Shown here piece by piece: positions 23,592 to 52,219 of a stretch of DNA of 64,000 nt (the first letter of the stretch is position 1; each line of letters starts with the position of its first letter). This DNA comes from Giesbergeria sp. (GTDB lineage Bacteria; Pseudomonadota; Gammaproteobacteria; Burkholderiales; Burkholderiaceae_C). Under the pieces are notes generated by a model, which worked only from the letters and a program-made list of their open reading frames with translations, was not told where the DNA came from and searched no databases. Location of the stretch: NCBI GenBank assembly GCA_017985015.1, contig JAGNYI010000010.1:22439-86438 (forward strand), read 5' to 3'. A program made the position numbers and the translations under genes.

Positions 23592-24740
23592 TCAGCGCGG
23601 CGCCAGCACCCAGCGGTTGCGCCCACCAGCCTTGGCCTCGTACAGCGCGGCGTCGGCTTCCTCCACCAGGCCGGTGCTGCCGTATTTGTGGGGCGGCACC
23701 TGTGCAGCCACACCCACGCTCACACTCACACAGGGCGACACCTGGGACGCGCCATGCACCAGACCAAGCGCCGCCACATTCGCCACGACACGCGCGGCCA
23801 CGGTGGCGGCGCCTTCGGCATCGGTGTCGGGCAGGATGACGGCCAGCTCTTCGCCACCGTAACGCGCCACCAGGTCGGTGCTGCGCGTCAGGGTGTCCTC
23901 CACCGCACGCGCCACCGCCTGCAGGCACGCGTCGCCCTTGGGATGGCCATGGCAATCGTTGAACTGCTTGAAATGATCGACATCGATCATCAGCAGGGCC
24001 AGCGGTTGTTCGCGCCGAAATGCCGCCGCGCAGGCCTGCGCCAGACGTTCATCAAAATAGCCCCGATTGGCAATGCCCAGCAGGCCGTCGGTGCGGGAGA
24101 ACGCCTCCAGTTGTAGATTGGCGTTGAGCAACTCTTCGTTGGCGTGCGCGAGCTCCTGGGTGCGCCCAGCCACACGCGCCTCCAGTTGCCGGTTGGCGTC
24201 GATCAGACCGGCATTTTGCTGCGCCAGCACATGGTAGAGCCGTGCGATCAGTTTGAGCAGCGCCTGCGTGGTTTTGCTCTCGGGGAATTCCTTCTCGTTG
24301 CGCCATGCCTGCTCGGGCGTGGCGCCTGCAGCAATGGCGACGATCTGCCGCGCCAACGCCTGGTCGGTTCCCAGGATGTGCAGCCCCAGCCAGGAGGTGA
24401 GAAACCCGATGATGGACTCAGCCGTGTCCGGCATGGAGTGGCGCGCCGACCAGATGGTGCGGATCTGCTCGACAAACTGCGCGTGCTGGGCCTCGTGCGA
24501 CGCAATGTGGTGCGGGTCGATTCCCACCCCCCGCATCAGCGCCTCCTCATCGGCAAAGTGGTATTCGGTATAGGCCACCAGACGCGAAAACGTGTCGTTC
24601 AGCAGGACCTCGCGATCGTCCAGATTGGTGCTCTGGAAGGTGTTGCTCAGTTCATTGAACAGATCAACCAGCGCGTGGTGCTGGACGTCCACGTCCTCGA
24701 CGCCTGTGATGAAGTTCTGGTCCCAGACAAAGGCATCCAT
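23592..24740 (-). CDS. Bacteriohemerythrin-GGDEF diguanylate cyclase
   Basis: 382 aa. The N-terminal bacteriohemerythrin domain (~1-135) shows the di-iron ligand pattern: His in [12 protein letters not shown], HxxxE in HFADEEALM, HxxxH in HEAQHAQF, and HxxxxD in HILGTD. A helical coiled linker (~160-215) joins the GGDEF domain (~215-380), with [20 protein letters not shown] and active-site [12 protein letters not shown] (GGEEL variant of GGDEF). It likely senses oxygen or redox state through the di-iron site and makes c-di-GMP. No membrane segments. It is convergent with the HD-GYP gene, so synthesis and breakdown enzymes are neighbours. Confidence 0.92.
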
Positions 24741-35772: not shown

Positions 35773-35944
35773 CTAGGGATGTCCTACAAAGCTCTACGCG
35801 AGTGGGTGTAGTGCGGATCGGGATGGGATGTTAGGCGCGTTTTGCAGGCAATAGCCAGTGCTATTGGCTGTGAAGCGCAACGACGCAGACCGCCCGAGTC
35901 CGCGCTATCACACGCCGCGAGGAGCTATGCAGGACGTCCCTAGC
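35773..35944. mobile_element. MITE-like element with ~23-bp terminal inverted repeats
   Basis: The left end GCTAGGGATGTCCTACAAAG (35773-) and the right end, read on the minus strand, GCTAGGGACGTCCTGCATAG (ending 35944) match with few mismatches and both continue CTC. The element is ~172 bp, has no coding capacity, and contains the inner palindrome CAATAGCCAGTGCTATTG. It lies between the chemoreceptor gene and gph and contains the last 13 codons and stop of gph. Confidence 0.65.
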
Positions 35945-36633
35945 TCGGCCAGCGAATCCACCCAGGCATCGGCGTCCACCGCGCGTGCGCTCTGGCCATG
36001 GTTGTAGCCGTAGGTGACCAGCAGCACCGGGCAGCCGGCCGACCGCGCTGCCTGGGCGTCATTGGCCGAATCACCAATCATCAATGTGCGTGCGGGGACT
36101 GTGCCCAGTGCTGCGCAGCTGCGCAACAAGGGCAGCGGATCGGGTTTTTTCCGCTCGAAGGCGTCGCCTCCAAACACATGCTTAAAGCAATCAAGATCGA
36201 GCGCCCGCAGCAGCACCGTGGCAAAGGCGGTCGGCTTGTTGGTTACGCAAGCCATCGGAATGCCGGCGGCTTCCAGCGCCCGCAGTCCCTGCCGCACCCC
36301 CGGATACATTTCGGCAAACTGGCCGTTGATGGCTGCGTAGTGGCGCTGGTAGCTGGGCCAGGCACGCTGGTAGAGCGCTTCTAAATCAATAGCTGGAAGC
36401 ACTCTTCCACCTTGCGCTAGAACGCTATTTAATACAGAAATAAGCAAATGCTCCGAGCCTTTGCCCACCATCGTGGCGATGGCTTCACGCGCAACAGAAG
36501 GCAGGCATAACTCGACCAGCATGCGGTTGAGGGCCTCGTCAAAATCGCCCAGCGTGTCCACCAGGGTGCCGTCAAGGTCAAAGATGGCGGCATCGACTTC
36601 GAACGTCGTGCCTGGGAGTGTGAGGATGGCCAT
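35908..36633 (-). CDS. gph: Phosphoglycolate phosphatase (HAD family), repeat-modified
   Basis: 241-aa HAD hydrolase. Motif I is IFDLDGTLVDTLGDFDEALN, motif II is CVTNKP, motif III Lys is in FERKKPDPLPLL, and motif IV is MIGDSANDAQAARSAG. It removes phosphate from 2-phosphoglycolate; specificity for this substrate is by overall similarity. Two departures: residues ~67-88 (VLNSVLAQGGRVLPAIDLEA) are read through a degenerate ~55-bp interspersed repeat in the cap domain, and the C-terminal ELGTSCIAPRGV and stop lie in the inverted-repeat element at 35773-35944. All four motifs are intact, so activity is likely kept. Confidence 0.9.
   Translation of the reverse strand: MAILTLPGTTFEVDAAIFDLDGTLVDTLGDFDEALNRMLVELCLPSVAREAIATMVGKGSEHLLISVLNSVLAQGGRVLPAIDLEALYQRAWPSYQRHYAAINGQFAEMYPGVRQGLRALEAAGIPMACVTNKPTAFATVLLRALDLDCFKHVFGGDAFERKKPDPLPLLRSCAALGTVPARTLMIGDSANDAQAARSAGCPVLLVTYGYNHGQSARAVDADAWVDSLAELGTSCIAPRGV
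36381..36432 (+). repeat. Degenerate interspersed ~55-bp repeat, copy E, inside gph
   Basis: Reads CTAAATCAATAGCTGGAAGC, then TTGCGCTAGAACGCTATTTA. It keeps the outer AATAGCTG and GCGCTAGA...CTATTTA blocks of the family but has a diverged centre. It is in frame within the gph cap domain. This is the weakest copy. Confidence 0.5.
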
Positions 36634-37311: not shown

Positions 37312-40300
37312 TCAATCCGACTTCGGCACTTCTGCGGGGCGCCGCGGCAGAACCACAACATAGTTGCCCCCTTCGTCACCCGCCGGCAACGCCACCCACG
37401 CACCTACTTCCAGCCGCTGTGCACCCGCGTCCTGCGCCTGGGAGAGGGCATCCGGGACGTCGTCAAAGCAAATCGTGAACTGGTGCCTGGCGCCGCCGCG
37501 CTCCAATGTCAGCCGCGCCTGGGGCCAGTGGCTGGGGAGACAAGGTCGAAGGCAAACGCGATCCGCGCGCACCTCCAGGCCCAGGATCGATTCAATGGCG
37601 GCGCGATGCATCCAGGCCGCCGAACCGGTGTACCAGCTCCAGCCGCCCCGGCCCACATACGGTGCTTCGGAGTAGATATCGCCCGCCATGACGTACGGCT
37701 CCAGCCCATAGACCACCTTCTGCCTTGCATTGGCGTTGCGGTGCGCTGGGCTCAGTTGGGTGAAAGTGCGGTAGGCGCCATCTCCATCGCCCAATTGCGC
37801 CTGCGCCATCAGCTTCCAGACACCGGCGTGCGAATACTGGCCGCCGTTCTCGCGCACGCCCGGCGGATAGGCCTGGATGTAGCCAGCACTCGGCACCATG
37901 TGCTGTAGCGGTGGCGTGAGCAGGCGGTTGAGGCCCGCGTCCTCGTCCACCAGCAGTTCGGCCACGGCCGCCATCGCTGCGCGCTGGCGCTCCGGCGAGG
38001 CCGCGCCCGACAGAACGCTCCAGGCCTGCGCGATAAGGTCAATGCGGCACTCGACAGCGTCATGGGTGCCCAGTGGCGTGCCATCGTCGAAAAAGGCGCG
38101 CTTGAACCATGCGCCGTCCCAGGCCGGTCCGGCCAGCGCCGTGCGCCAACCGCGCGCAGCCAGGCGCCAGTGGTCGATGCGTTCGGCGTCGCCGCGCCGC
38201 TGTGCGAGCGGAACGAAAGCGTCGGTCACGGTGCACAGGAACCAGGCCAACCACACCGATTCGCCGCGACCTTGGTCGCCCACCAGGTTCATGCCGTCAT
38301 TCCAGTCACCGTTGCCGATGAGCGGAAGGCCGTGCTCGCCCACTTTGAGGCTGCGGTCCAATGCACGGGCGCAGTGCTCGTACAAGCTGGCGGAGGCGCT
38401 GCTCACGGTCGGCACGAAGTACACATCGTGCGTGCCTTCAGGGATGGCCGGCCCGTCCAGAAAGGTCACGGATTCGTCGAGCACGGCCGCGTCGCCTGTC
38501 ACTTGCACATAGCGCGCCACGGCTTCTGGGAGCCACAGCAAATCATCGGAACAATGGGTGCGCACCCCGGCGCCAGTCGGCGGGTGCCACCAGTGCTGCA
38601 CATCGCCTTCCTCGAACTGTCGCGACGCCGAAAGCAACAACTGCTGGCGCAGCGCTTGCGGGCGGGCGATGGCCAGCGCCATGGCGTCTTGCAACTGATC
38701 GCGAAACCCAAAGGCGCCTCCCGCCTGATAGAAGCCCGCCCGCGCCCACATGCGGCAGCCCACGGTCTGGTAGAGCAACCAGTGGTTGACCAGGGCGTCG
38801 AACAAGGGGTCAGGTGTTTGCACCTGCACTGGCGCGAGCAGCTGCGCCCACTGGGCGCGCGCCGCCGTTTCCCAGCGCTTGGCATCCGGCGCAGCGCCCT
38901 CATTCAGGCAATCGCGCGCGAGCGCCAGCGCTTCACTGCTAGTGGCGCCGTGTCCCAGCAGAAAGACGCAGTCGCAGCTCTCTCCGGCCTGAACGTCCAG
39001 CGGACACGATAGCGCGGCGCAGGGGTCCAGCCCGAGGCCGGCCTGCTCAGCCAGGTGGTCAGGCACGACACGGTGGCCACGTGCATCGAAAAACTCGCGC
39101 CGGTCGCAGGTCCAATCGATGGACGGCTGCACTCCATCATGTGCTGCATAGACCGCAAAGAACGCCGTACTGCCGCCCTGGCCGGACTGTCCATCGCGCT
39201 GAATCGCCAGCAACACGGGCACCGATCTGCTGGGCACGGCCGCCCCGCTATTGCCGTCGCACGAAGTAGCGACGCTCTGGCGGTCCAGGCGCTGGCTGCC
39301 CATCACCCATTCAAGAAGGCCGATGGCGCGCAACCGCAGCCCCTCCTGCCCCCGGTTCGTGAGGGTCAGGCGCACCTGCTTGACGGAGCGCTGCGGGTCC
39401 ACGCACCAGGTGCTGCGAATCGTCAGCTTCCCATGGTGTTGCTCAAGCACCGTGACGCCCTGACCATGCTCTACCTTGCGCACACCGTCAAATCCCTTGC
39501 CCACACCGTACAAGGCTTTGCTGCGCAGGTCCTGCAGCCAGAAGATCTCGCCGCCCGGGTCGGACACGGGGTCGTTCGACCAAACCGTGAGCTTGTGCTG
39601 CTGGCTGTTGCCAGCCCAGCTGTAACCGGCGCCAGACTCAGACACCTGCGTGCCGAACTCCGGGTTGGCAAGGACGTTGATCCAGGGCCGCGAGACTTGC
39701 TTTTGCGCAGAAATCTCAAATCGGAACGCGCCACTATTCGCATCGAACTCGCCGTCTGGGGCTGCCGCAGACGCGCCTGCACGCTGCAAATTCAGTGACG
39801 CGTGGGACTGGTCGATGCGCTCGTCCAACGCGGCGTTGTGCCATTGCGTCAGTTCGCGCAAATGCTGGGACAGGGGCCGCCCATCGGCCGAGAAGCGCAC
39901 GCGGGCCAGCATGCGCAGCGTGGTGTGCTCTTCGCTCGAAAGATCGGGTTGGCGCAGCAGGTGCAGGCCACAGGCTCGGTCTGCATCGACACCCACGCTT
40001 TGCGCTCTGTGTGTCTCCTTCAGTTCTTGCAACGCCAGCTGCAGCGGCATCTGGTAGGAGGGCGGCTCCGCGTTCACCACCACCAGATCGCAAGGCAACC
40101 CACCCCAGGCCCACAGATGCAAGGCCTTTACCAGCGAACGCACCAGACGTATCCCATGCTCCGCGCTGATTTCTACCAGCAACTGGGGGCGGTCACCCGA
40201 TATGCCGAAGCGCCACAGCGTGCGCCGATCGCCCAGGTTTTGTACGCCAGTCGGCAGTGTCCTCGGCCCTGGGCGCGCGTGCAGCAGAGCGATCAGCGTG

Positions 40301-43221
40301 GATAGCGCCTGAATGGCGGCGCGGTCTTCCCGAAGGATTCCCATCTCGCGCATGCGCACACCAGCAAAAGTCGACGACATCAGCATGGAGCGCTCAATGA
40401 CCGCCGGTTGGCGGTAGCGATCCACCAGCGTCTCCAGCGCATCTCGCTGGTTCGCCGCGGCAGTGCCCAGCGTGAATTGCGCGTGCGACTGCGCTGGTAC
40501 CACGATGCGAAGCGACAGGGCGCACACCGGATCCAGTCCGGTCCGCACGGGGGCATCGCCGGCAGGAGGATCTTCGCACCGCGCAAGCGGCGCCGACGCG
40601 TCCCGGTTGCGGCCCAGCCAGGCAGCGCGGTCGGTCTGGAGTCTGAGGACAACGGGCTGGCGCTCACTCTCTGCCAGAAAATGCACCGCATGTACGCTTT
40701 GCTGGGCATCGGTATTCGGATGCCGGGAAAAGTACAGCGCCTGGTTGGCATCCACCCAATCCGATGCGATGAACAGGTTGGCGAAAGCGGGGTGCGCCTC
40801 GTCGGCTCGGGCTTCGAACAGCGACACCTCGAATACGGAGAACAGTTCCAGCTCGATGGGCTCGGAAGTCGAATTCCACAATTCAATGCGCCGCAGTTCC
40901 ACATCGTCTTCGGGGCTCACCCAGACCGTGCAGCAGCTGCGCAGATCGGTCCACTGAGCATGCAGGCAGGCATGGTCGCCCTGCAGGCTGGCGCGGTATG
41001 CAGCCAGCGGATCGGCCGCCGGGTGCTGCGTGATGGAAACCAAACCGGCATCGCTCGCCTCGGACACATTGGACGCCGCCACGCGGCGCAGGTAGACGAA
41101 GTGGCCGTAGGCATCGCGCAAAGCATCGTCTCGCCAGCGCGAGATATCGGCGTTGCCGTACCGGCTCCAGCCGGAGCCGTTGGCACGCAGCGATACGCTG
41201 TATTTGCCGTTGGAGAGCAGCACGGTGGGCTCGATCCCGCTGGAGCCCGGCACCAGCTCACGCGGCGTCGCTCCCGCCACACGCGTACGCACCGTGCGAC
41301 GTGGTTGAGTGAGCGGTTCGACAAGACGGGGAATCTCTCGCGGAACCGCCTCCTGAAGCAGGCCGGAGACCGCGCGCAGGCGGGCGTTCGCCATGGTCCA
41401 GCGGCGCGGGGCGCCATCCAGCAGCACGTTGGTCAGTGCCACCAGCGTCATGCCCTGGTGGTGGGCCATGAAAGTGGACACCCACTGGAACCTGCTGCCG
41501 CCACTCTGGCGTTCTGTACTGAAATCCAATGCCTCAATAAAACCCCAGTCGGCACGCGCCTTCAGCGACTCAAAGGTGAGGAAATTCGCCTCTGCGGCAG
41601 GTCGATCGAACATGGCGGCCAGGCCTGTCGCATAAGGCGCCACCACGAGATCGTCGGCAGGCGTTCGCCTCAGCGCGAGTCGGGGCACGCCCTGCGGGGC
41701 GTACTGGTAAGCGAGCGTGTGGTCCCCCGCCGCATAGGCGCATTCTGAAACACCCCATGGCACGTCGTGGCTTTGCGCATAGCGCTGTTGCTCGTAGATC
41801 GCGGACCGTGCGGCCGTATTGAGCGCGCTGCCCACGGGCTCGTCGAGCACCAGCGCCGGCATCAGATACTCAAACATGGAACCTGACCAGGAACGCAGGG
41901 CCGCGCGCCGGCCCACTCCATAGAAGGGCCGCCCCAGTGAACCCCAATGCTCTGCCGGCACATCGCCCTTGGCGATAGCCCACAGGCTGGCCAGCCGCGC
42001 CTCAGAGGCCAACAAATCGTAAAAACTGGTGTCAAGTGCGCTGTCCGCCACCCGGTAACCGATGTGCAGCAGGCGCTTGCGCGGGTGGTACAGAAAACCG
42101 AACTCCGGCTCGGTCGCCAGCTTGCGGCAACGCGCGGCAAGGGCTTGCAGCCGGGCCGGTACGGGAGTTTCTACGTCGGGTTGCGAATCGTGCAGCAGTG
42201 CGTCACACGCGCCTGCCAGGGCGAGCAAATGGCCACACAGATTGCCGCTGTCCACCGTGGAAACGTAAGCGGGCTTCAGTATCTCCAGCGTACGCGTGTC
42301 GTACCAGTTGAGGAAGTGCCCTCTGTGGCGCTCCAGCGTGTCGAGCGTGTCCAGGGTGGCTTCACAGCGCGACAGCAACTGTGCAGTGTCGATCCAGCCG
42401 AAAGAACGCGCGCACGCTACCGCCAGCAGATACAGACCCATGTTGGTGGGCGAGGTCCGTTCGGCCACCATGGTGCTCGGAACGGTCTGCACATTGTCAG
42501 GGGGCAGGTGGTGCGTCGGCTCGCCGACATGGATCTCAAAAAATCGCCAAGTGTCGCGCGCAATTCCCGCCAAGTAGGCTTGCTCCTGCGGTGTGGCTTG
42601 AGGTTCTTCCTGGAAGCGCCAGGGCCGGCTGAACAGCCAGATCCAGAGAGGCGTCGCAGCCCAAGCGGCGCAGAGCAGCGCACTAAAGACCGGCCAAGCC
42701 GTGTTTTGCTGCCACAGCGCCAGCCAGAGCAAGGCAGCCGCCAGTGTGACCGGGGCATGCGCGGCGACGAGTCCGGGCAAACTCGTCAGAGCAGCTGCCT
42801 GCGCACTGGCGGCGGTGGTCCACTGCAGTAGCCCCCGCCGGCTCACAAAGCTGCGCCACAGGGCGCACCCGACGGCGTGAAGCAGCATCAAGGCCTGCTG
42901 CAGCAAGGTAGCGAGATGCCACAACGCGCTGCCGAAGGCGCGCAGCACTTCCCTCAATGCTTGCCGATAGAAATATTCAAGCGCCGCGTTGTCGCGTGCA
43001 GGCACCAGGCCCGCCAGCGCGCCAATCAGCGGACCGGCGCCGAAAGCCAGTAGCACCCACGCCAGCGTGCTCCAGGGCGACAGGGGCGCGCCTGCCAGCG
43101 CCAGCACCAGCAGGCCCGCCGATGCGGGAGCCACGAGCGAGCGGCGAAGGTTGTCCAGCAACTTCCAGCGGGTAATTCCAGGAAGGTCGTAGCGGCGCCA
43201 CTGCAGCATCAACGGCAGCAA
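37312..43221 (-). CDS. C-terminal part of cyclic glucan synthase (membrane segments + GH94 phosphorylase domain)
   Basis: 1,969-aa frame downstream of the amber codon. The first possible start is TTG 43221, the first ATG 43209; neither has a clear ribosome site. It begins in the middle of a domain, which supports a broken gene. Hydrophobic segments occur at ~32-75 and ~130-180. Repeated beta-sandwich and alpha/alpha-barrel regions follow, with GNGDWNDGMNLVGDQGRGES at ~1640 holding the catalytic Asp region of GH94 phosphorylases, and EPYVMAGDIYSEAPYVGRGG near the end. In whole enzymes this domain controls chain length by phosphorolysis. It converges with the small exported gene at 37267. Confidence 0.8.
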   Translation of the reverse strand: MLPLMLQWRRYDLPGITRWKLLDNLRRSLVAPASAGLLVLALAGAPLSPWSTLAWVLLAFGAGPLIGALAGLVPARDNAALEYFYRQALREVLRAFGSALWHLATLLQQALMLLHAVGCALWRSFVSRRGLLQWTTAASAQAAALTSLPGLVAAHAPVTLAAALLWLALWQQNTAWPVFSALLCAAWAATPLWIWLFSRPWRFQEEPQATPQEQAYLAGIARDTWRFFEIHVGEPTHHLPPDNVQTVPSTMVAERTSPTNMGLYLLAVACARSFGWIDTAQLLSRCEATLDTLDTLERHRGHFLNWYDTRTLEILKPAYVSTVDSGNLCGHLLALAGACDALLHDSQPDVETPVPARLQALAARCRKLATEPEFGFLYHPRKRLLHIGYRVADSALDTSFYDLLASEARLASLWAIAKGDVPAEHWGSLGRPFYGVGRRAALRSWSGSMFEYLMPALVLDEPVGSALNTAARSAIYEQQRYAQSHDVPWGVSECAYAAGDHTLAYQYAPQGVPRLALRRTPADDLVVAPYATGLAAMFDRPAAEANFLTFESLKARADWGFIEALDFSTERQSGGSRFQWVSTFMAHHQGMTLVALTNVLLDGAPRRWTMANARLRAVSGLLQEAVPREIPRLVEPLTQPRRTVRTRVAGATPRELVPGSSGIEPTVLLSNGKYSVSLRANGSGWSRYGNADISRWRDDALRDAYGHFVYLRRVAASNVSEASDAGLVSITQHPAADPLAAYRASLQGDHACLHAQWTDLRSCCTVWVSPEDDVELRRIELWNSTSEPIELELFSVFEVSLFEARADEAHPAFANLFIASDWVDANQALYFSRHPNTDAQQSVHAVHFLAESERQPVVLRLQTDRAAWLGRNRDASAPLARCEDPPAGDAPVRTGLDPVCALSLRIVVPAQSHAQFTLGTAAANQRDALETLVDRYRQPAVIERSMLMSSTFAGVRMREMGILREDRAAIQALSTLIALLHARPGPRTLPTGVQNLGDRRTLWRFGISGDRPQLLVEISAEHGIRLVRSLVKALHLWAWGGLPCDLVVVNAEPPSYQMPLQLALQELKETHRAQSVGVDADRACGLHLLRQPDLSSEEHTTLRMLARVRFSADGRPLSQHLRELTQWHNAALDERIDQSHASLNLQRAGASAAAPDGEFDANSGAFRFEISAQKQVSRPWINVLANPEFGTQVSESGAGYSWAGNSQQHKLTVWSNDPVSDPGGEIFWLQDLRSKALYGVGKGFDGVRKVEHGQGVTVLEQHHGKLTIRSTWCVDPQRSVKQVRLTLTNRGQEGLRLRAIGLLEWVMGSQRLDRQSVATSCDGNSGAAVPSRSVPVLLAIQRDGQSGQGGSTAFFAVYAAHDGVQPSIDWTCDRREFFDARGHRVVPDHLAEQAGLGLDPCAALSCPLDVQAGESCDCVFLLGHGATSSEALALARDCLNEGAAPDAKRWETAARAQWAQLLAPVQVQTPDPLFDALVNHWLLYQTVGCRMWARAGFYQAGGAFGFRDQLQDAMALAIARPQALRQQLLLSASRQFEEGDVQHWWHPPTGAGVRTHCSDDLLWLPEAVARYVQVTGDAAVLDESVTFLDGPAIPEGTHDVYFVPTVSSASASLYEHCARALDRSLKVGEHGLPLIGNGDWNDGMNLVGDQGRGESVWLAWFLCTVTDAFVPLAQRRGDAERIDHWRLAARGWRTALAGPAWDGAWFKRAFFDDGTPLGTHDAVECRIDLIAQAWSVLSGAASPERQRAAMAAVAELLVDEDAGLNRLLTPPLQHMVPSAGYIQAYPPGVRENGGQYSHAGVWKLMAQAQLGDGDGAYRTFTQLSPAHRNANARQKVVYGLEPYVMAGDIYSEAPYVGRGGWSWYTGSAAWMHRAAIESILGLEVRADRVCLRPCLPSHWPQARLTLERGGARHQFTICFDDVPDALSQAQDAGAQRLEVGAWVALPAGDEGGNYVVVLPRRPAEVPKSD

Positions 43222-43239
43222 CTGCCAGTCGCCGCGTGT

Positions 43240-45696
43240 CTAGCGATGAATGCGCGCTGCGGCAACGTCGGCGTGCAGCGGCGCATCTTCCATCAGCGTG
43301 ATGTCGCTCACGGTGGCGCAGCGCGCGAGCGAACCTTCAAGAAGATCGTGGCTGAGCACCTGGCCTTCAGGCAATCGGCGTCCCAATACGGTGTGCATGG
43401 CATGCACGTTCAGGAGGCCTTTGCCAACGAAGCTCCCCTCCGAAAACAAGTCCTGATAAATCTCGGACGTCGCTGCGCTGTAGGGGTCGATGCCGCAGCG
43501 GCCCGAAAACAGCCAGTGAAACAAGGTAGCTGTGGCGGGTTCCGGCAACGGCGTGGTGAGCCGCGGTTGCAAAATGCCGAAACCCGACACGACGCGGCGC
43601 CGCCGCGCATCCACCTGCGGCCGGTTGAGCGGGTGTGCGGCCACCCCCACCAGAGCGCGCAGGGTTCCCGGTGGCAGACCGGTGTCGCTATCGAGGGTCA
43701 CCACATACGGCGTGCCAGGCACCGGCTGCGACAACAGGCCCAGATCCACGAACGGCGAATCGCCTCCCTCGGCAAGCCACTGGACCAGATTTTCTAGCTT
43801 CCCGCGTTTGCGCTCCCAGCCGATCCAGCGGCGCTCGGTAGGCGCCCAGCTGCGTTCCCGGTGCAGCAGCAGGAATCGGTGAGCGGCACCGTTCAGGGGG
43901 GCCTGGCTGTAACGGGCCTCCAAAGCCTCCATCTCGGTGCGCGCCTGCTCCAGCAACGCGGCGTCGCCCGGCTGCGTGGCGGCGTCGGCGTCTGAATAGT
44001 CGGTCAACAGGGCGAACTGCGCGCAGGGCTCGCTGTTGGCAAGGTAATGCTGCTCCAACTGCAACACCAGTTCGCGCACGGTTCTCGGCGATGTCAGCAT
44101 CGTCGGCAGCACCACGAGCACCCGGTGCTCGTGCGGAATACCCGCTGGCAGCCCATACCGTGCCATGCGCCGTGGCGGCAGGGATTCGCTGAGCATGCGG
44201 TGGACCACTGCAAGAACCGCCTCTCCCGCCGGGAAAAGGGCCAACAAGCCCACCCCCCACAGCGCCGGGCCAGCAGCAAACGGCCATGCAAGGCGGGGCC
44301 CGAGCACCATCCAGGCGGCGGCAGCCAAACTGCCAACCAGCAGCACCATGACGTACAGCGGCAACACGCCTCGCAGCAGCAACTGCCGCATTTCCCAGTG
44401 GCGCTGCGCACGCAGGTCCAGGGCCGTGTAGAGCACTTTGCGGCCAGGTCCGCGCAGCCAGTAGCCAGGCGTGTGGGAGGCAGCGTCCGCATACTCCCCA
44501 TCATTGCGGGGAGGCTGTGAAACATTTTCTGCCACTGCGCCGCTCAATCGATCTGTGCGCTCAATGCCCATCAAAGTCAGCAAGTGGCTGGCGATGAACG
44601 ACTCACTGTGTGTGCTGCGCCTGGCCAGGCGCTGAATGGCAAACAGGCTGGCGTCCTGCGTATCTTCGCGTTCAGCGCAAAAAGTGGGCGATGCCTCAAG
44701 GGTACGCACCAGAACGCTGGTGTGGGTGACCACTTCGCGCCAATCGGCGTCCTCCAGGGTGCGCAGCGCCAGAATGGCATTGCGCATGCTCAAGCTGTCG
44801 GCGGCCTTCTCCGCGTGCTGCTCCACCTGGGAGGAAGAGGGATCTGGCAACCAGCCGCCCAACGCTTCGCGTGTCCTTAGGAGTGTTGCCTGCACCTCTG
44901 CATCTCGCGAGCTTGCGATGTCACCCGTCTCGGTGTTCAGCCTTTCGTTGACCTGAAGCGCAAAGGCGCGGCCCACACCACGACGCGCCATCGCTTTGAA
45001 GCGTTGCTCAAAACTGGATCCTCCGAATTTTCCGGATTCGATGAGAGCGTCGCACCATTCGTCCGCCGCCTGCCGAGCGGCCATGGACGTCGCCACCTGT
45101 TCCGCCAAGCGCCGCAGGTTTTCCACCAGCAACACACGCAAAGTAGACGCAAGCGCCCAGATCTCGCCGAAGTTCAGCTCGCACACCGTTTGGTAGGCGT
45201 TCAAAAAGCTCACCAGCAAGTCGTTGTCGATGGCGCTGTCGGTATGCGCCACGAACGCCCAGGCGACGCCGTAGATGCGTGGCATACCCGCGAGATGTTC
45301 GCCACCCAGCACCGGCAAGTCGGCGAAGTAGCGCCTCGGCAACGCCTGACCGATGTCGTCGGTCTGTGCCATCAGCATCTGAAAATTGTCGAGCAGCCAT
45401 TCGCCGGCGGGGCTTACATGGTGGCCCGTGCGCTCCTGGTCTGCGATGTACGCATGCGAGAGCCGCAAAACGCGCAGATTTTGCTGAAGGCGTGGGTAAA
45501 AGGGCCGGGCTTTAGACGGAGCACTACCGCTTTCGACATGCGCCTGCGCCAAGCTGCGCCCGTGCTGCTCCAGCCGCGTGAGGCCGAAGATTTCTGCGCG
45601 TATTGGCGGCTCCAGTTCGCCCAGGCCTGAACTCAGGAGCTGATCGAACCCGACGCCGCTGCTGGCGGCCAAGCCTTTCTCGTCGCGCGGTGCCAC
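43240..45696 (-). CDS. N-terminal part of cyclic glucan synthase (GT84), truncated at amber
   Basis: 818 aa from a GTG at 45696 (weak ribosome site). The N-terminal helical region is ~1-400. Membrane segments at ~428-450 and ~455-480 include GVLPLYVMVLLVGSLAAAAW. The glycosyltransferase domain from ~510 has VLVVLPTMLTSPRTVRELV, DxD-type VVTLDSDTGLPPGTLRALVG, FVGKGLLNVHAMHTVL and catalytic-base SHDLLEG. It stops at RIHR, exactly where the RxxRW motif should end, and also lacks the membrane spans that follow. Without the Trp and the rest this half is unlikely to be active alone. Confidence 0.82.
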   Translation of the reverse strand: MAPRDEKGLAASSGVGFDQLLSSGLGELEPPIRAEIFGLTRLEQHGRSLAQAHVESGSAPSKARPFYPRLQQNLRVLRLSHAYIADQERTGHHVSPAGEWLLDNFQMLMAQTDDIGQALPRRYFADLPVLGGEHLAGMPRIYGVAWAFVAHTDSAIDNDLLVSFLNAYQTVCELNFGEIWALASTLRVLLVENLRRLAEQVATSMAARQAADEWCDALIESGKFGGSSFEQRFKAMARRGVGRAFALQVNERLNTETGDIASSRDAEVQATLLRTREALGGWLPDPSSSQVEQHAEKAADSLSMRNAILALRTLEDADWREVVTHTSVLVRTLEASPTFCAEREDTQDASLFAIQRLARRSTHSESFIASHLLTLMGIERTDRLSGAVAENVSQPPRNDGEYADAASHTPGYWLRGPGRKVLYTALDLRAQRHWEMRQLLLRGVLPLYVMVLLVGSLAAAAWMVLGPRLAWPFAAGPALWGVGLLALFPAGEAVLAVVHRMLSESLPPRRMARYGLPAGIPHEHRVLVVLPTMLTSPRTVRELVLQLEQHYLANSEPCAQFALLTDYSDADAATQPGDAALLEQARTEMEALEARYSQAPLNGAAHRFLLLHRERSWAPTERRWIGWERKRGKLENLVQWLAEGGDSPFVDLGLLSQPVPGTPYVVTLDSDTGLPPGTLRALVGVAAHPLNRPQVDARRRRVVSGFGILQPRLTTPLPEPATATLFHWLFSGRCGIDPYSAATSEIYQDLFSEGSFVGKGLLNVHAMHTVLGRRLPEGQVLSHDLLEGSLARCATVSDITLMEDAPLHADVAAARIHR

Positions 45697-45714: not shown

Positions 45715-45957
45715 TTACCAGTAGACGCTGAGGGCAAGCAGAACGCCTGCCACCAACACCACCACGGTGACGACGCGTCCACTTAGAAAGGAACCGACTG
45801 TTTTAGCGGTATCGCGAACGCTGTGCCAGGCGCCATTGGCCTGCAAACACTGACGCACGTGTCGCTCGAGGCTCAGTGTTTCCGAAGGCGGGGCGTCGCC
45901 CCCCATGCTGCGCTGTGGGACAGGGAACGTATGGATGGGAGTGTGGGTGTTGGGCAT
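45715..45957 (-). CDS. Small protein with C-terminal membrane anchor
   Basis: 80 aa from the ATG at 45957, which has GAGG upstream. The N-terminal half is hydrophilic (PNTHTPIHTFPVPQRS), then an amphipathic stretch, then a single C-terminal helix (VVTVVVLVAGVLLALSVYW). It lies 18 bp upstream of the glucan synthase gene and probably shares its transcript. No family recognised; an accessory or membrane-targeting role for the synthase is only a guess from position. Confidence 0.6.
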   Translation of the reverse strand: MPNTHTPIHTFPVPQRSMGGDAPPSETLSLERHVRQCLQANGAWHSVRDTAKTVGSFLSGRVVTVVVLVAGVLLALSVYW

Positions 45958-46127: not shown

Positions 46128-46814
46128 TCAGCGCTGCGCCAGTTGCGTTCGCATGGCGTCGATCACAGCCTTGTAGTCGCGCTGCCCGAAAATGGCACTG
46201 CCCGCGACGAACGTATCCGCCCCGGCGTCGGCGACGCGGCGGATATTGTCTTCCTTGATGCCGCCGTCCACCTCTAGCCGGATGTCCTTGCCCGATGCGT
46301 CTATGCGCTTGCGCACCGCCTCGATCTTGCGCAGGGACGACTCAATGAAGCTCTGGCCACCAAAACCGGGGTTGACGCTCATGATAAGGATTACGTCGAT
46401 GTCGTCAATGACCCAATCCAGTACGTCCAACGACGCAGCCGGGTTAAATACCAGGCCGGGACGAGCGCCCTGGGCCCGAATCGCCTGAATGCTGCGGTGC
46501 ACATGCTGCACTGCATCAGCGTGAAAACTGATGGTGTCTGCGCCCGCCGAAGCAAACGCCGCAGCGAGCGCATCCACAGGCTCGACCATCAGATGCACGT
46601 CGATCGACACCGCCTGACCCGCCGCAGTCTTGGCATGTGGCTTGAGCGCCTGGCAGATCATGGGTCCGAAAGTCAGGTTGGGCACATAGTGGTTGTCCAT
46701 CACATCAAAGTGAATCCAGTCGGCACCGGCCGCGATGACGCTAGAGACTTCCTCCCCCAGACGAGCAAAGTCGGCGGACAGGATGGAGGGGGCAATGCGG
46801 TAGGTACGGCTCAT
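46128..46814 (-). CDS. rpe: Ribulose-phosphate 3-epimerase
   Basis: 228-aa TIM-barrel enzyme interconverting ribulose 5-phosphate and xylulose 5-phosphate. Start ATG 46814 with GGAG six bases upstream. Metal and catalytic motifs: [63 protein letters not shown] and [12 protein letters not shown]. Divergent from apaG with only 30 bp between starts. In related genomes it is often near gph and trpE; here those are about 10 kb away. Confidence 0.96.
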
Positions 46815-46844
46815 GACTCCATTGTCGCAGTTACCATCCGGGCC

Positions 46845-47234
46845 ATGCAATCGCCTGCCTTCGACATCCATGTCCAGACCGCCTACCTGGCGGACCAGTC
46901 CGCGCCCGAGCGCGAGGTGTTCGCCTTCAGCTACACCATCACCATCGTCAACCGCAGCGATGCCCCGGCCCAACTGATCGCGCGCCACTGGAAAATCGAG
47001 GACGAGCAGGGCCCGCAAGACGAAGTGCGCGGCCTTGGCGTAGTCGGCCAGCAACCCCTGCTGCGGCCGGGAGAGCGCTTCGAGTACAGCAGCGGTTGCC
47101 GCTTGCGCAGCGACACGGGCAGCATGGAAGGGAGCTACCGCTTCGTGACCGAAGTGGGCGAAGCGTTCGATGTGCCCATCCCCCGCTTCGTGATGCATGC
47201 AGCCCAAGGCGGCGGCCATCGCGTCCTCCACTGA
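46845..47234 (+). CDS. apaG: ApaG protein
   Basis: 129 aa, the normal length for the Co2+/Mg2+ efflux-associated protein ApaG. An Ig-like beta-sandwich (DUF525) is shown by [51 protein letters not shown] and [10 protein letters not shown]. The biochemical role is unsettled. It overlaps nothing and lies 25 bp before the first antiporter gene. Confidence 0.92.
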
Positions 47235-47259
47235 CGCACCGCGCGCCCGCTGCCTACCG

Positions 47260-48558
47260 ATGGAATATCTGCCCGCGTGGCCGTTCTCGGTCAACACCCT
47301 GTTCTTTTTTGGTTTTCTGCTTTTTTCCGGCGCTCTCGGGGGCTATATCGCGCACCGTTGGCGTTGGCTGCCCAGCATCACAGGATTCATGGTGGTGGGC
47401 TTCGTGGCGGGGCCGAATGTGCTGGGCGTCATCAGCGAGGCTGGCCTGGCGCAATCGCGCATCGTGGTCGATGTGGCGCTGGCGCTGATCCTGTACCGGC
47501 TCGGACTATCGATCGACACCAAGCGCATCAAGCAGGACCGCCAGGTAGTACTGGTCTCACTGGTGGAGAGCGCGCTGACCTTTGCTGGAGTGTATTTCGC
47601 GCTGGGGATGTGCGGTGTTTCGGGTCTGACGGCGGCGGTGATCAGCACCATTGCCATTTCGTCCTCGCCCGCCGTGCTGATTCACGTGGCGCACGAGCTT
47701 GAAGCTTCGGGCCCGGTGACCGAACGCGCCATGCTGCTGGTGGCACTCAACAACGTGATCGCCTTCATTGCCTTTGCTGCGGTGCTGCCCGCGCTCTACG
47801 GCGAAGCCAATGCACCGCTGGCAGTGATGGTAGGCGCGCCGCTCTACCAGTTGCTGGGCTCTGGCGCGCTGGGGCTGGCGATGGGCGGCCTCCTGCATCT
47901 GGCAGCGCGAAAAACCAAAGTGGCGGAGCAATACCAACTTGCACTGGTGATTGGCGCCGTCATGATGACCGTGGGCGCCGCGCTGGCGCTCAAGCTCTCG
48001 GCGCTTTTCGCGCCCTTGGTGCTGGGGATGGTAGTGCGCAGCATGGAGCGGGCCAAGCTGATCGCCAACATCGAGTTTGGCGCTTCTTTCGAGCTGTTCT
48101 TCATCGTACTGTTTGTTTACGCGGGCGCCAACCTCCATGTGGCCGAAATCGCCGACTACTGGCCGGCCGTGCTGGCATTCCTCGGCGCGCGCGCGGCGGC
48201 GAAGTGGCTGGGCGTGGGAGGCTCGGCTCTGCTGCTCGGCGCCTCACCGCGCCAGGCAGGCAGCACTGGCCTCTTGCTGCTGCCCATGGCTGGCCTGGCC
48301 ATTGGCCTGGTCAACACCACACTAAATCTGTTTCCAGAGAAAGGCGCGGTGATTGGTTCCATCGTTCTGGCTGCGGTCGCCCTGCTGGAGACGGTGGGTC
48401 CTCCCATTGCAGCGCGTGCCCTGCGGTGGTCGGGCGACAAACTCAATGAGAATGGGGCAAAGCGCCCGAGCGGCGGCGCGACAAGTAGCGTCCCAAGTAG
48501 TACGGCGTCCGACGCGCCGCAAGCTCCATTTCAGCCGCCCGCTGCGCCAGGCGCTTGA
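47260..48558 (+). CDS. CPA2-family cation:proton antiporter (first of two)
   Basis: 432-aa membrane protein with about 11-12 helices. Starts [20 protein letters not shown]. Typical CPA2/KefB-like segments: [59 protein letters not shown] hydrophilic Ser/Pro/Ala-rich tail follows ~400; no TrkA-N (RCK) domain is present, so it is shorter than KefB/KefC. It stands upstream of a second, related antiporter with the same length class. The ion is not identifiable. Confidence 0.82.
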
Positions 48559-49958: not shown

Positions 49959-51069
49959 AGCCTTCAACCATTCCGAGCCGCTCACCCTGGGGGTCGAGCT
50001 GGAATTGCAACTCGTCAACACCCACGATTACGACTTGGCGCCCTACGCTGAGGACATGCTGCGCCTGATGAAAAAGCACCCGCTTCCGGGCAGCGTGGTA
50101 CCCGAGATGACGAGCGGCATGATCGAGATTTCTACCGGCATTTGCCATTCGAGCAGCGAAGTGCTGGGGCAATTGACGCAGATTCGCGATGCCCTGGTCA
50201 AATGCGCCGACAAGCTCAACATTGCGGTGGTCGGCGGCGGCACGCACCCATTCCAGCAGTGGCACGAGCGGCGCATCTACGACAAGCCGCGCTTTCGCGA
50301 GCTCTCCGATCTGTACGGCTACCTGTCCAAGCAGTTCACCATCTTTGGCCAGCATGTGCACATTGGCTGCCCCGATGCCGATTCTGCCCTGCTCATGCTG
50401 CACCGCATGTCGCGCTTCATTCCGCACTTCATTGCGCTCTCGGCATCGAGCCCCTACATCCAGGGCCAGGACACGGCATTTGATTCGGCGCGGCTCAATT
50501 CGGTGTTTGCCTTTCCGCTCTCGGGCCGTGCGCCCATGGCGCTGACGTGGCAGGATTTCGAGGCCTATTTCGACAAGATGACGCACACCGGCGTGGTGCG
50601 CAGCATGAAGGACTTCTACTGGGACATTCGCCCCAAGCCCGAATTCGGCACCATTGAAATCCGCGTCTTCGACACCCCGCTGACCATCGAGCGCGCCGCC
50701 GCTCTGGCCGGGTTCGTGCAGTCGCTGGGCGCCTGGTTTTTGGCAGAGCAGCCCTTCATGCCGCAGGAAGACGACTACCTGGTCTATACCTACAACCGCT
50801 TCCAGGCCTGCCGTTTCGGCATGGACGCGGTCTACGTCGACCCGGCCACGGGCGGCCACATGCCGCTGCGCGAGCACATCATGCGCACCATTGACCAGAT
50901 TGCAGGCCACGCCGCCGCGCATGGCGCCTCAAGCGCCCTGCACCTGCTGCGCGGCGAAGCCGCCGCCGGACAGAACGACGCGCGCTGGCTTCGTGAGCGC
51001 CAGCGCGAAGAGCAATTGCTGGCCGAAGTGACCCGCCAGGCGGCGCAGCGGTTTAGAGGTAGGGATTGA
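49948..51069 (+). CDS. ybdK: YbdK-type carboxylate-amine ligase (GCS2 family)
   Basis: 373 aa, the normal length of the family. ATG 49948 follows GGAGACAACC. Glutamate-cysteine-ligase fold: [70 protein letters not shown] and [21 protein letters not shown]. coli YbdK has weak glutamate-cysteine ligase activity; the true substrate is uncertain. Its overlap with an antiporter gene recalls the glutathione link of KefB/C, but that is only suggestive. Confidence 0.88.
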
Positions 51070-51072
51070 TTC

Positions 51073-51135
51073 CCCCTGCGCCGCTTCGCGTCTTCCCCCT
51101 GAGGGGGACGCCTCCAGCGGACTGGCAAAGCCAGA
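51073..51135. repeat. C/G-palindromic interspersed repeat (ybdK / thiL)
   Basis: Contains CGCCGCTTCGCGTCTT, CCCCCTGAGGGGG and CTGGCAAAGCCAG (a small hairpin). Related to the element inside glpK by the CGCTTCGCG and CCCCC-GAGGGGG blocks. It occupies the first half of the 175-bp gap; the rest (51136-51244) shows no recognisable feature except the thiL promoter area. Confidence 0.65.
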
Positions 51136-51244
51136 TCCGCGGTGGCACTGGTAGCCCGTTTTCAAGCTCTGCGGCATGGCGATCAACGAGCTTCCCAGGT
51201 TGCGCCCGTCATACTTGACTCGATGATCGAACCCGAAAACCTCC

Positions 51245-52219
51245 ATGGGTGAATTCGACCTCATAGCAAGACATTTCAAGCGCCCGGTGCGCCGCACCGC
51301 GTTGGGCGTAGGCGACGACTGCGCCCTGCTGGCGCCGCGCCCTGGCATGCAACTGGCCGTCTCGTCGGACATGCTGGTCGAGGGGCACCACTTCTTTGCC
51401 GACGTGGACCCGCAGGCACTGGGCCACAAGGCGCTGGCCGTGAACCTCTCAGACCTGGCGGCGTGTGGCGCCGAGCCCCTGGCGTTCACGCTGGCCCTCG
51501 CCCTGCCCAATGCCGACGACGCCTGGCTGGCGGCGTTTGCGCGCGGCCTTTTTGCCTTGGCCGACGCGCACGGCTGCGAGCTGGTGGGGGGCGACACCAC
51601 GCGCGGGCCGCTCAATATCTGCATCACCGTTTTTGGTGAACTGCCCACCGGCCAGGCCCTGCTGCGCAGCGGCGCACGGGCGGGCGACGATTTGTACGTG
51701 AGCGGGACGCTGGGCGACGCGCGCCTGGCGCTGGAAGCCCTGCAGGGCCGGGTGGCCCTGCCTCCGCCTCTGCTGGCCGCCGCGCGCCAGCGGCTGGAAC
51801 GCCCCACGCCACGCGTCGCCCTGGGCCAGCAGCTGCGCGGTGTGGCAAGCAGCGCCATTGACCTGAGCGATGGCCTGCTGGGCGATGTGGGCCATGTGCT
51901 GCACGCCTCGGGGGTGGGCGCGCGCATTCAGATGGAAAATGCTATTGAATGTATAGCTACAAATTCTTATGGAATAAGTGCTGGAAGCCTATTTGACCAA
52001 GATTTTTTGCTTCATTGCGTGCTGTCGGGCGGTGACGACTATGAACTCGCCTTCACGGCGCCCGCTGCTGCGCGCGCCGCGGTGGCTGCGGCGGCGCTGC
52101 AAGCCGGCACCGCTGTACGGCGCATCGGCCAGATCGAAGCGGCGCCCGGCCTGCGCGTGGTGGATGCCGCGGGGCGGGAACTGGCGCTGGCGTTCTCATC
52201 GTTTGACCATTTCGCCTGA
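51245..52219 (+). CDS. thiL: Thiamine-monophosphate kinase with repeat-encoded segment
   Basis: 324-aa enzyme that phosphorylates thiamine phosphate to thiamine diphosphate. The PurM/ThiL-like fold shows GVGDDCALLAPRPGMQLAVS, SSDMLVEGHHFFADVDP, KALAVNLSDLAACGAEPLAF, LVGGDTTRGPLNICITVFG, and the C-terminal AIDLSDGLLGDVGHVLHASG and SGGDDYELAFT. Between GARIQMEN and DFLLHCVLSGGDDYE about 20 residues (AIECIATNSYGISAGSLFDQ) are read from a ~55-bp interspersed repeat. The reading frame and catalytic motifs are intact. The 3' end overlaps the opposing binding-protein gene by 24 bases. Confidence 0.93.
   Translation: MGEFDLIARHFKRPVRRTALGVGDDCALLAPRPGMQLAVSSDMLVEGHHFFADVDPQALGHKALAVNLSDLAACGAEPLAFTLALALPNADDAWLAAFARGLFALADAHGCELVGGDTTRGPLNICITVFGELPTGQALLRSGARAGDDLYVSGTLGDARLALEALQGRVALPPPLLAAARQRLERPTPRVALGQQLRGVASSAIDLSDGLLGDVGHVLHASGVGARIQMENAIECIATNSYGISAGSLFDQDFLLHCVLSGGDDYELAFTAPAAARAAVAAAALQAGTAVRRIGQIEAAPGLRVVDAAGRELALAFSSFDHFA
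51938..51996 (+). repeat. Interspersed ~55-bp repeat, copy F, inside thiL
   Basis: Reads ATGCTATTGAATGTATAGCT, ACAAATTCTTATGGAATAAG, TGCTGGAAGCCTATTTGAC. Strong match to copies B and D (GCTATTGAAT..ATAGCT, ..AATAAG.GCT.GA.GCCTATTT). Translated in frame as part of ThiL. Strikingly AT-rich compared with the flanking gene. Confidence 0.78.

Follow-up and report, generated by a model that had tools for sequence, protein, structure and literature searches.

A single in-frame TAG at the RW-motif tryptophan codon of a putative cyclic beta-1,2-glucan synthase gene: probably an ordinary recent nonsense allele, possibly a sequence error

The window, which here means the whole stretch of 64,000 nucleotides that was analysed, carries on its minus strand a frame of about 8.4 kb (45696..37312) that is interrupted by a single in-frame TAG at 43242..43240. 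From a GTG at 45696, 818 codons are open upstream of the TAG, and 1,975 are open downstream of it. The peptide across the site reads ...AAARIHR-stop-TRGDWQLLPL.... The original prediction placed the TAG at codon 819 of a gene with no further damage, and this description holds. A search of the whole assembly found the TAG at the same place, which is 65678-65680 of contig C92, as the only stop in an otherwise open frame of 2,800. Since the frame is intact on both sides of the TAG, the change is a substitution and not an indel. The features of the gene are as follows.

43243..45696, minus strand: first part of the cgs/ndvB gene (818 codons), with the N-terminal region and the GT84 glycosyltransferase as far as the RW-motif Arg (open frame; phmmer to 8rf0)
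43240..43242, minus strand: in-frame TAG, facing Trp in the relatives (sequence; alignments of relatives)
37312..43239, minus strand: remainder of the gene after the TAG (1,975 codons and its own stop), open and under purifying selection (frame; codon comparisons)
41422..42024, minus strand: glycoamylase-type (cyclisation) domain PF10091 (Pfam, residues 406-606 of P0002, the second part)
38953..39690, minus strand: GH94 supersandwich domain PF06165 (Pfam, residues 1184-1429 of P0002)
37579..38850, minus strand: GH94 phosphorylase catalytic domain PF17167 (Pfam, residues 1464-1887 of P0002)

Pfam assigns the genes on either side to a HAD hydrolase (35908-36633) and a ribulose-phosphate 3-epimerase (within 46128-47297); small ORFs lie between them and the synthase gene. 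Directly upstream, on the minus strand, lies an 80-residue ORF (45715-45957) that has one hydrophobic stretch, as judged by eye, and no Pfam match. Similar peptides, with ANGAWH in the middle and S-x-YW at the end, are found upstream of the gene in G012, a genome of the same genus (L054), and in Simplicispira hankyongi (L020). The assembly comprises 3.37 Mb in 110 contigs and is 95.6% complete. The window is collinear with G012 over nearly its whole length. Two adjacent genes of G012, with 87% and 56% protein identity, match window positions 23592-24740 (minus strand).

Judged from its sequence, this chromosomal gene encodes a three-part cyclic beta-1,2-glucan synthase of the Cgs/ChvB/NdvB type. 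The original prediction had named this family, and the assignment stands: both parts match the Agrobacterium tumefaciens enzyme, and PF10091, PF06165, and PF17167 are all present. The glycoamylase-type cyclisation domain is followed by C-terminal GH94 domains, as seen with Pfam and with phmmer to 8rf9 and 8rf0. The first part is matched by no Pfam or NCBIfam model, and it aligns with 8rf0 with a phmmer E of 3.6e-106. In this alignment, counted by hand, D527, D624, D739, and R773 of 8rf0 are all opposite identical residues of the window. The Agrobacterium structure paper names these four as UDP-coordinating, catalytic base, and RW-motif residues, with R773 belonging to the RW motif (PMC10901819). 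The last residue before the TAG aligns with residue 773 of chain 8rf0. In comparison with 8rf0, the GT84 region has the GT2-like aspartates and the RW-motif Arg, and the Trp column is occupied by the stop.

Relatives that cover the site have Trp in the TAG column without exception, both in the first alignment set (16/16) and at the loci of a wider survey (29/29). Together, the two sets hold 40 different records, with five genomes in both; L021 and L023 are identical across the aligned region, and one 91-residue fragment at a contig end (G019), which stops short of the site, was dropped before the counts. Comparison with homologues had been proposed as a check of the original prediction. It returned Trp in 40 of the 40 relatives read, and with the R773 equivalent directly before it, the TAG stands at the RW-motif Trp. 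In the order-wide survey of 300 genomes, 61 matched the region, the window's own genome included, and no in-region stop was found in the 60 others. The Trp column was read in 29 of these 60, for which loci are given; the other 31 are without a Trp reading. A natural end or split of homologues at this site was considered and rejected, as none occurs in the 16 aligned relatives or in the 60 other matching genomes. In one of the 60, G321 (C47:37120-37946), the match to the gene region is broken upstream of the site into two segments that lie in different frames, so a frameshift seems likely there. A relative of the first part was found in four named records: S. hankyongi NY-02, a betaproteobacterium of the Comamonadaceae, two Burkholderiaceae metagenome assemblies, and one Rhizobacter metagenome assembly.

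Selection on the gene was compared by counting codons where one sequence differs from three agreeing others (window, G012, L020, and L021). On the window branch, 23 changes are replacements and 129 are silent; the branch of G012, which has an intact gene and is the nearest relative by identity rather than by a tree, has 23 and 135 (Fisher p = 1.0). The approximate dN/dS against G012 is 0.15 for the first part and 0.11 for the second. These values suggest that selection on the gene was not relaxed until the stop arose. If the neutral ratio is set at 1.9 to 2.8 and the ratio of G012 serves as reference, roughly 3 to 5% of the window branch, at most, can have escaped selection. This age limit is loose, because the intact S. 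hankyongi gene (L020), on a longer branch, shows a higher ratio of 83 replacement to 197 silent changes. As selection is the same as in the nearest relative, the stop is either very young or not real, that is, a consensus error. The original prediction had likewise called the event recent or an error, and the branch counts bear this out.

A recent single nonsense substitution in a known enzyme gene, giving an ordinary allele, is in our judgment the best explanation, and we hold it to be probable, with considerable room for doubt. The cyclic beta-1,2-glucan synthase gene of a Simplicispira-like betaproteobacterium would have been under normal purifying selection and would have gained a single nonsense substitution very recently. 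The single disruption, the intact relatives, and selection that was unchanged until recently are what a recent nonsense pseudogene presents, and a base error would look the same.

The TAG may be absent from the organism itself. An error in consensus or assembly could have produced it, or the assembly could have taken in the variant of a minority strain, with the organism's gene intact; we consider this clearly less probable than a nonsense allele, and a serious contender. Lack of decay is equally expected from a base error, and a gene that shows no decay, with selection as in the nearest relative and with all relatives read intact, fits this explanation well. The assembly is also fragmented, in its 110 contigs. 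No 16S rRNA gene was found in it, by a weak search that was positive in only 9 of 14 control genomes, and neither tRNA-Ile(GAT) nor tRNA-Ala(TGC) was seen among its tRNAs, as if the rRNA operons were absent, a pattern of assemblies that lose them. An error would, however, have to be a substitution, given the frame kept on both sides. Moreover, such errors seem uncommon here, because 52 comparisons of window genes with G012, which did not systematically cover frameshifts, revealed no other mid-gene stop. The nonsense allele is ranked most likely and the consensus error next.

The comparison with G012 takes the best matching stretch of each ORF of at least 100 codons and keeps only frames with a dN/dS below 0.35, so it misses stops outside the stretch and is not a frameshift test. 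The glucan synthase gene was the only one of the 52 with a mid-gene stop. The sole other stop, at residue 88 of a 628-residue ORF that matches from residue 80 onward, is read as an over-long start call. In the reverse comparison of 50 window ORFs on G012, six had G012 stops. In five of these six, the stops all fall within 65 codons of the start of the window ORF, which is read as an over-long start or an overlapping frame; the sixth ORF (50929-51927, minus strand) lies opposite conserved plus-strand genes and is read as a shadow frame. An earlier, cruder comparison had flagged 15/46 and 22/42, mostly taken for shadow frames of GC-rich DNA, and was replaced by the dN/dS-filtered one. General decay of the window was considered and rejected on the 52 comparisons.

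The original prediction went further and regarded the position of the stop as improbable, and hence meaningful, on the ground that chance would seldom put a stop at this codon. This is overstated. Elsewhere in the gene there are 80 Trp codons, of which 35 are invariant in 14 full-length relatives (the frames of L022 and L063 are cut by contig ends, and these two were left out of the count). Trp codons account for 20% of all stop-making single changes when all changes are taken as equal and for 37-39% when changes are transition-biased, and invariant Trp codons account for 9% and 16-17%, respectively. Invariant residues of any kind take 24-26%. With such shares of invariant Trp codons and invariant residues, one stop on one invariant Trp is unremarkable, and the idea that the position carries meaning is unsupported. 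The Trp residue was singled out after the fact, and a stop on it would need no special cause. A stop on the Trp of a catalytic motif is thus no sign of recoding, as Trp codons belong to those that mutate to a stop most readily.

Neither read-through nor a split gene is likely. If the TAG were read through, by amber suppression or programmed recoding, a full-length enzyme would be made, and the purifying selection on both parts and the open remaining frame agree with this. However, the original prediction's suggestion of an amber suppressor tRNA found no backing in the assembly. None of its 46 tRNAs has the anticodon CTA, although the set may be incomplete at 95.6% completeness. TAG is the terminator of 6 of the 48 other compared window genes (7/50 with both parts of the glucan synthase gene), and no other of the 52 compared genes has a mid-gene stop. 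No examined relative has a stop at this position, so nothing is conserved as a recoding signal. Read-through is accordingly given a very small chance. A more specific form, in which a suppressor tRNA absent from the assembly or context-dependent read-through translates the TAG and the amber at the Trp site tunes the amount of full-length synthase, is the least probable of all the readings considered. It is hardly more credible that the gene is now two genes, with the second part (the end of the GT region and the cyclisation and phosphorylase domains) using a separate start codon: TTG, TTG, and ATG do occur in frame 7, 10, and 11 codons past the TAG, and GGAG or GAGG lies at most 20 bases upstream of 2 of the 17 in-frame starts in the first 200 codons (codons 62 and 98), but all six in-frame starts within 60 codons of the TAG lack a Shine-Dalgarno-like motif, the cut falls inside a membrane-enzyme motif and not at a domain border, and no examined relative is split here.

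For the favored nonsense allele, termination at the TAG would yield a protein of 818 residues that keeps the GT84 active-site aspartates, ends at the RW-motif Arg, and is without the whole of the cyclisation and phosphorylase domains. No cyclic glucan should be made by such a product. In Agrobacterium, according to the structure paper, whole or partial removal of the C-terminal domain alone was enough to cost the enzyme its activity, as judged by a hypoosmotic growth assay (PMC10901819). As such truncations alone have this effect there, loss of cyclic glucan synthesis would be expected here. The first part of the gene is matched in only 8 of the 25 other genomes of the genus, one of the matches being a fragment, and in 5 of the 14 among them with a completeness of at least 90% and a contamination of no more than 5%. 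Gene loss is therefore unremarkable and appears tolerable. The alternative glucan gene mdoG/opgG has no match in the window's genome. An OpgG/MdoG match was found in 1 of 26 genus genomes, and that genome also has a cgs gene, whereas the 17 genus members without a cgs match have no mdoG match either. Absence of both thus seems common in the genus. Loss of the gene would leave this genome without either known glucan route, which speaks against a nonsense allele, but the same 17 members likewise match neither. A literature search found no paper on cyclic glucan in Simplicispira. If the allele is real, this genome, which has no OpgG match, would have lost cyclic glucan synthesis naturally, consistent with such glucans being dispensable in the genus. 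The finding in itself is of little significance.

Compared with the Cgs/ChvB of A. tumefaciens (PDB 8rf0, 8rf9), the window gene has the same order of GT84, glycoamylase-type cyclisation domain, and GH94 phosphorylase, and differs in being cut by the TAG directly after the R773 equivalent. The cgs gene of S. hankyongi NY-02 (L020) is 78% identical in the first part and 80.6% in the second, and it has no stop in its frame of 2,801 codons, in contrast to the window gene. The traits of an amber-suppressing or TAG-reassigned genome were not seen: no CTA tRNA was among the 46 of the assembly, where one could be missing, and several TAG-interrupted genes together with a rare TAG terminator were not found in the window. 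Recent single-nonsense pseudogenes, with one stop and no further decay, form a general class in bacterial genomes. The window gene likewise has one stop and no further decay, and nothing about it is distinctive except for the conserved residue that was struck. The TAG has the look of a sequencing slip or of a recent, ordinary gene loss rather than of a novel decoding of the stop codon.
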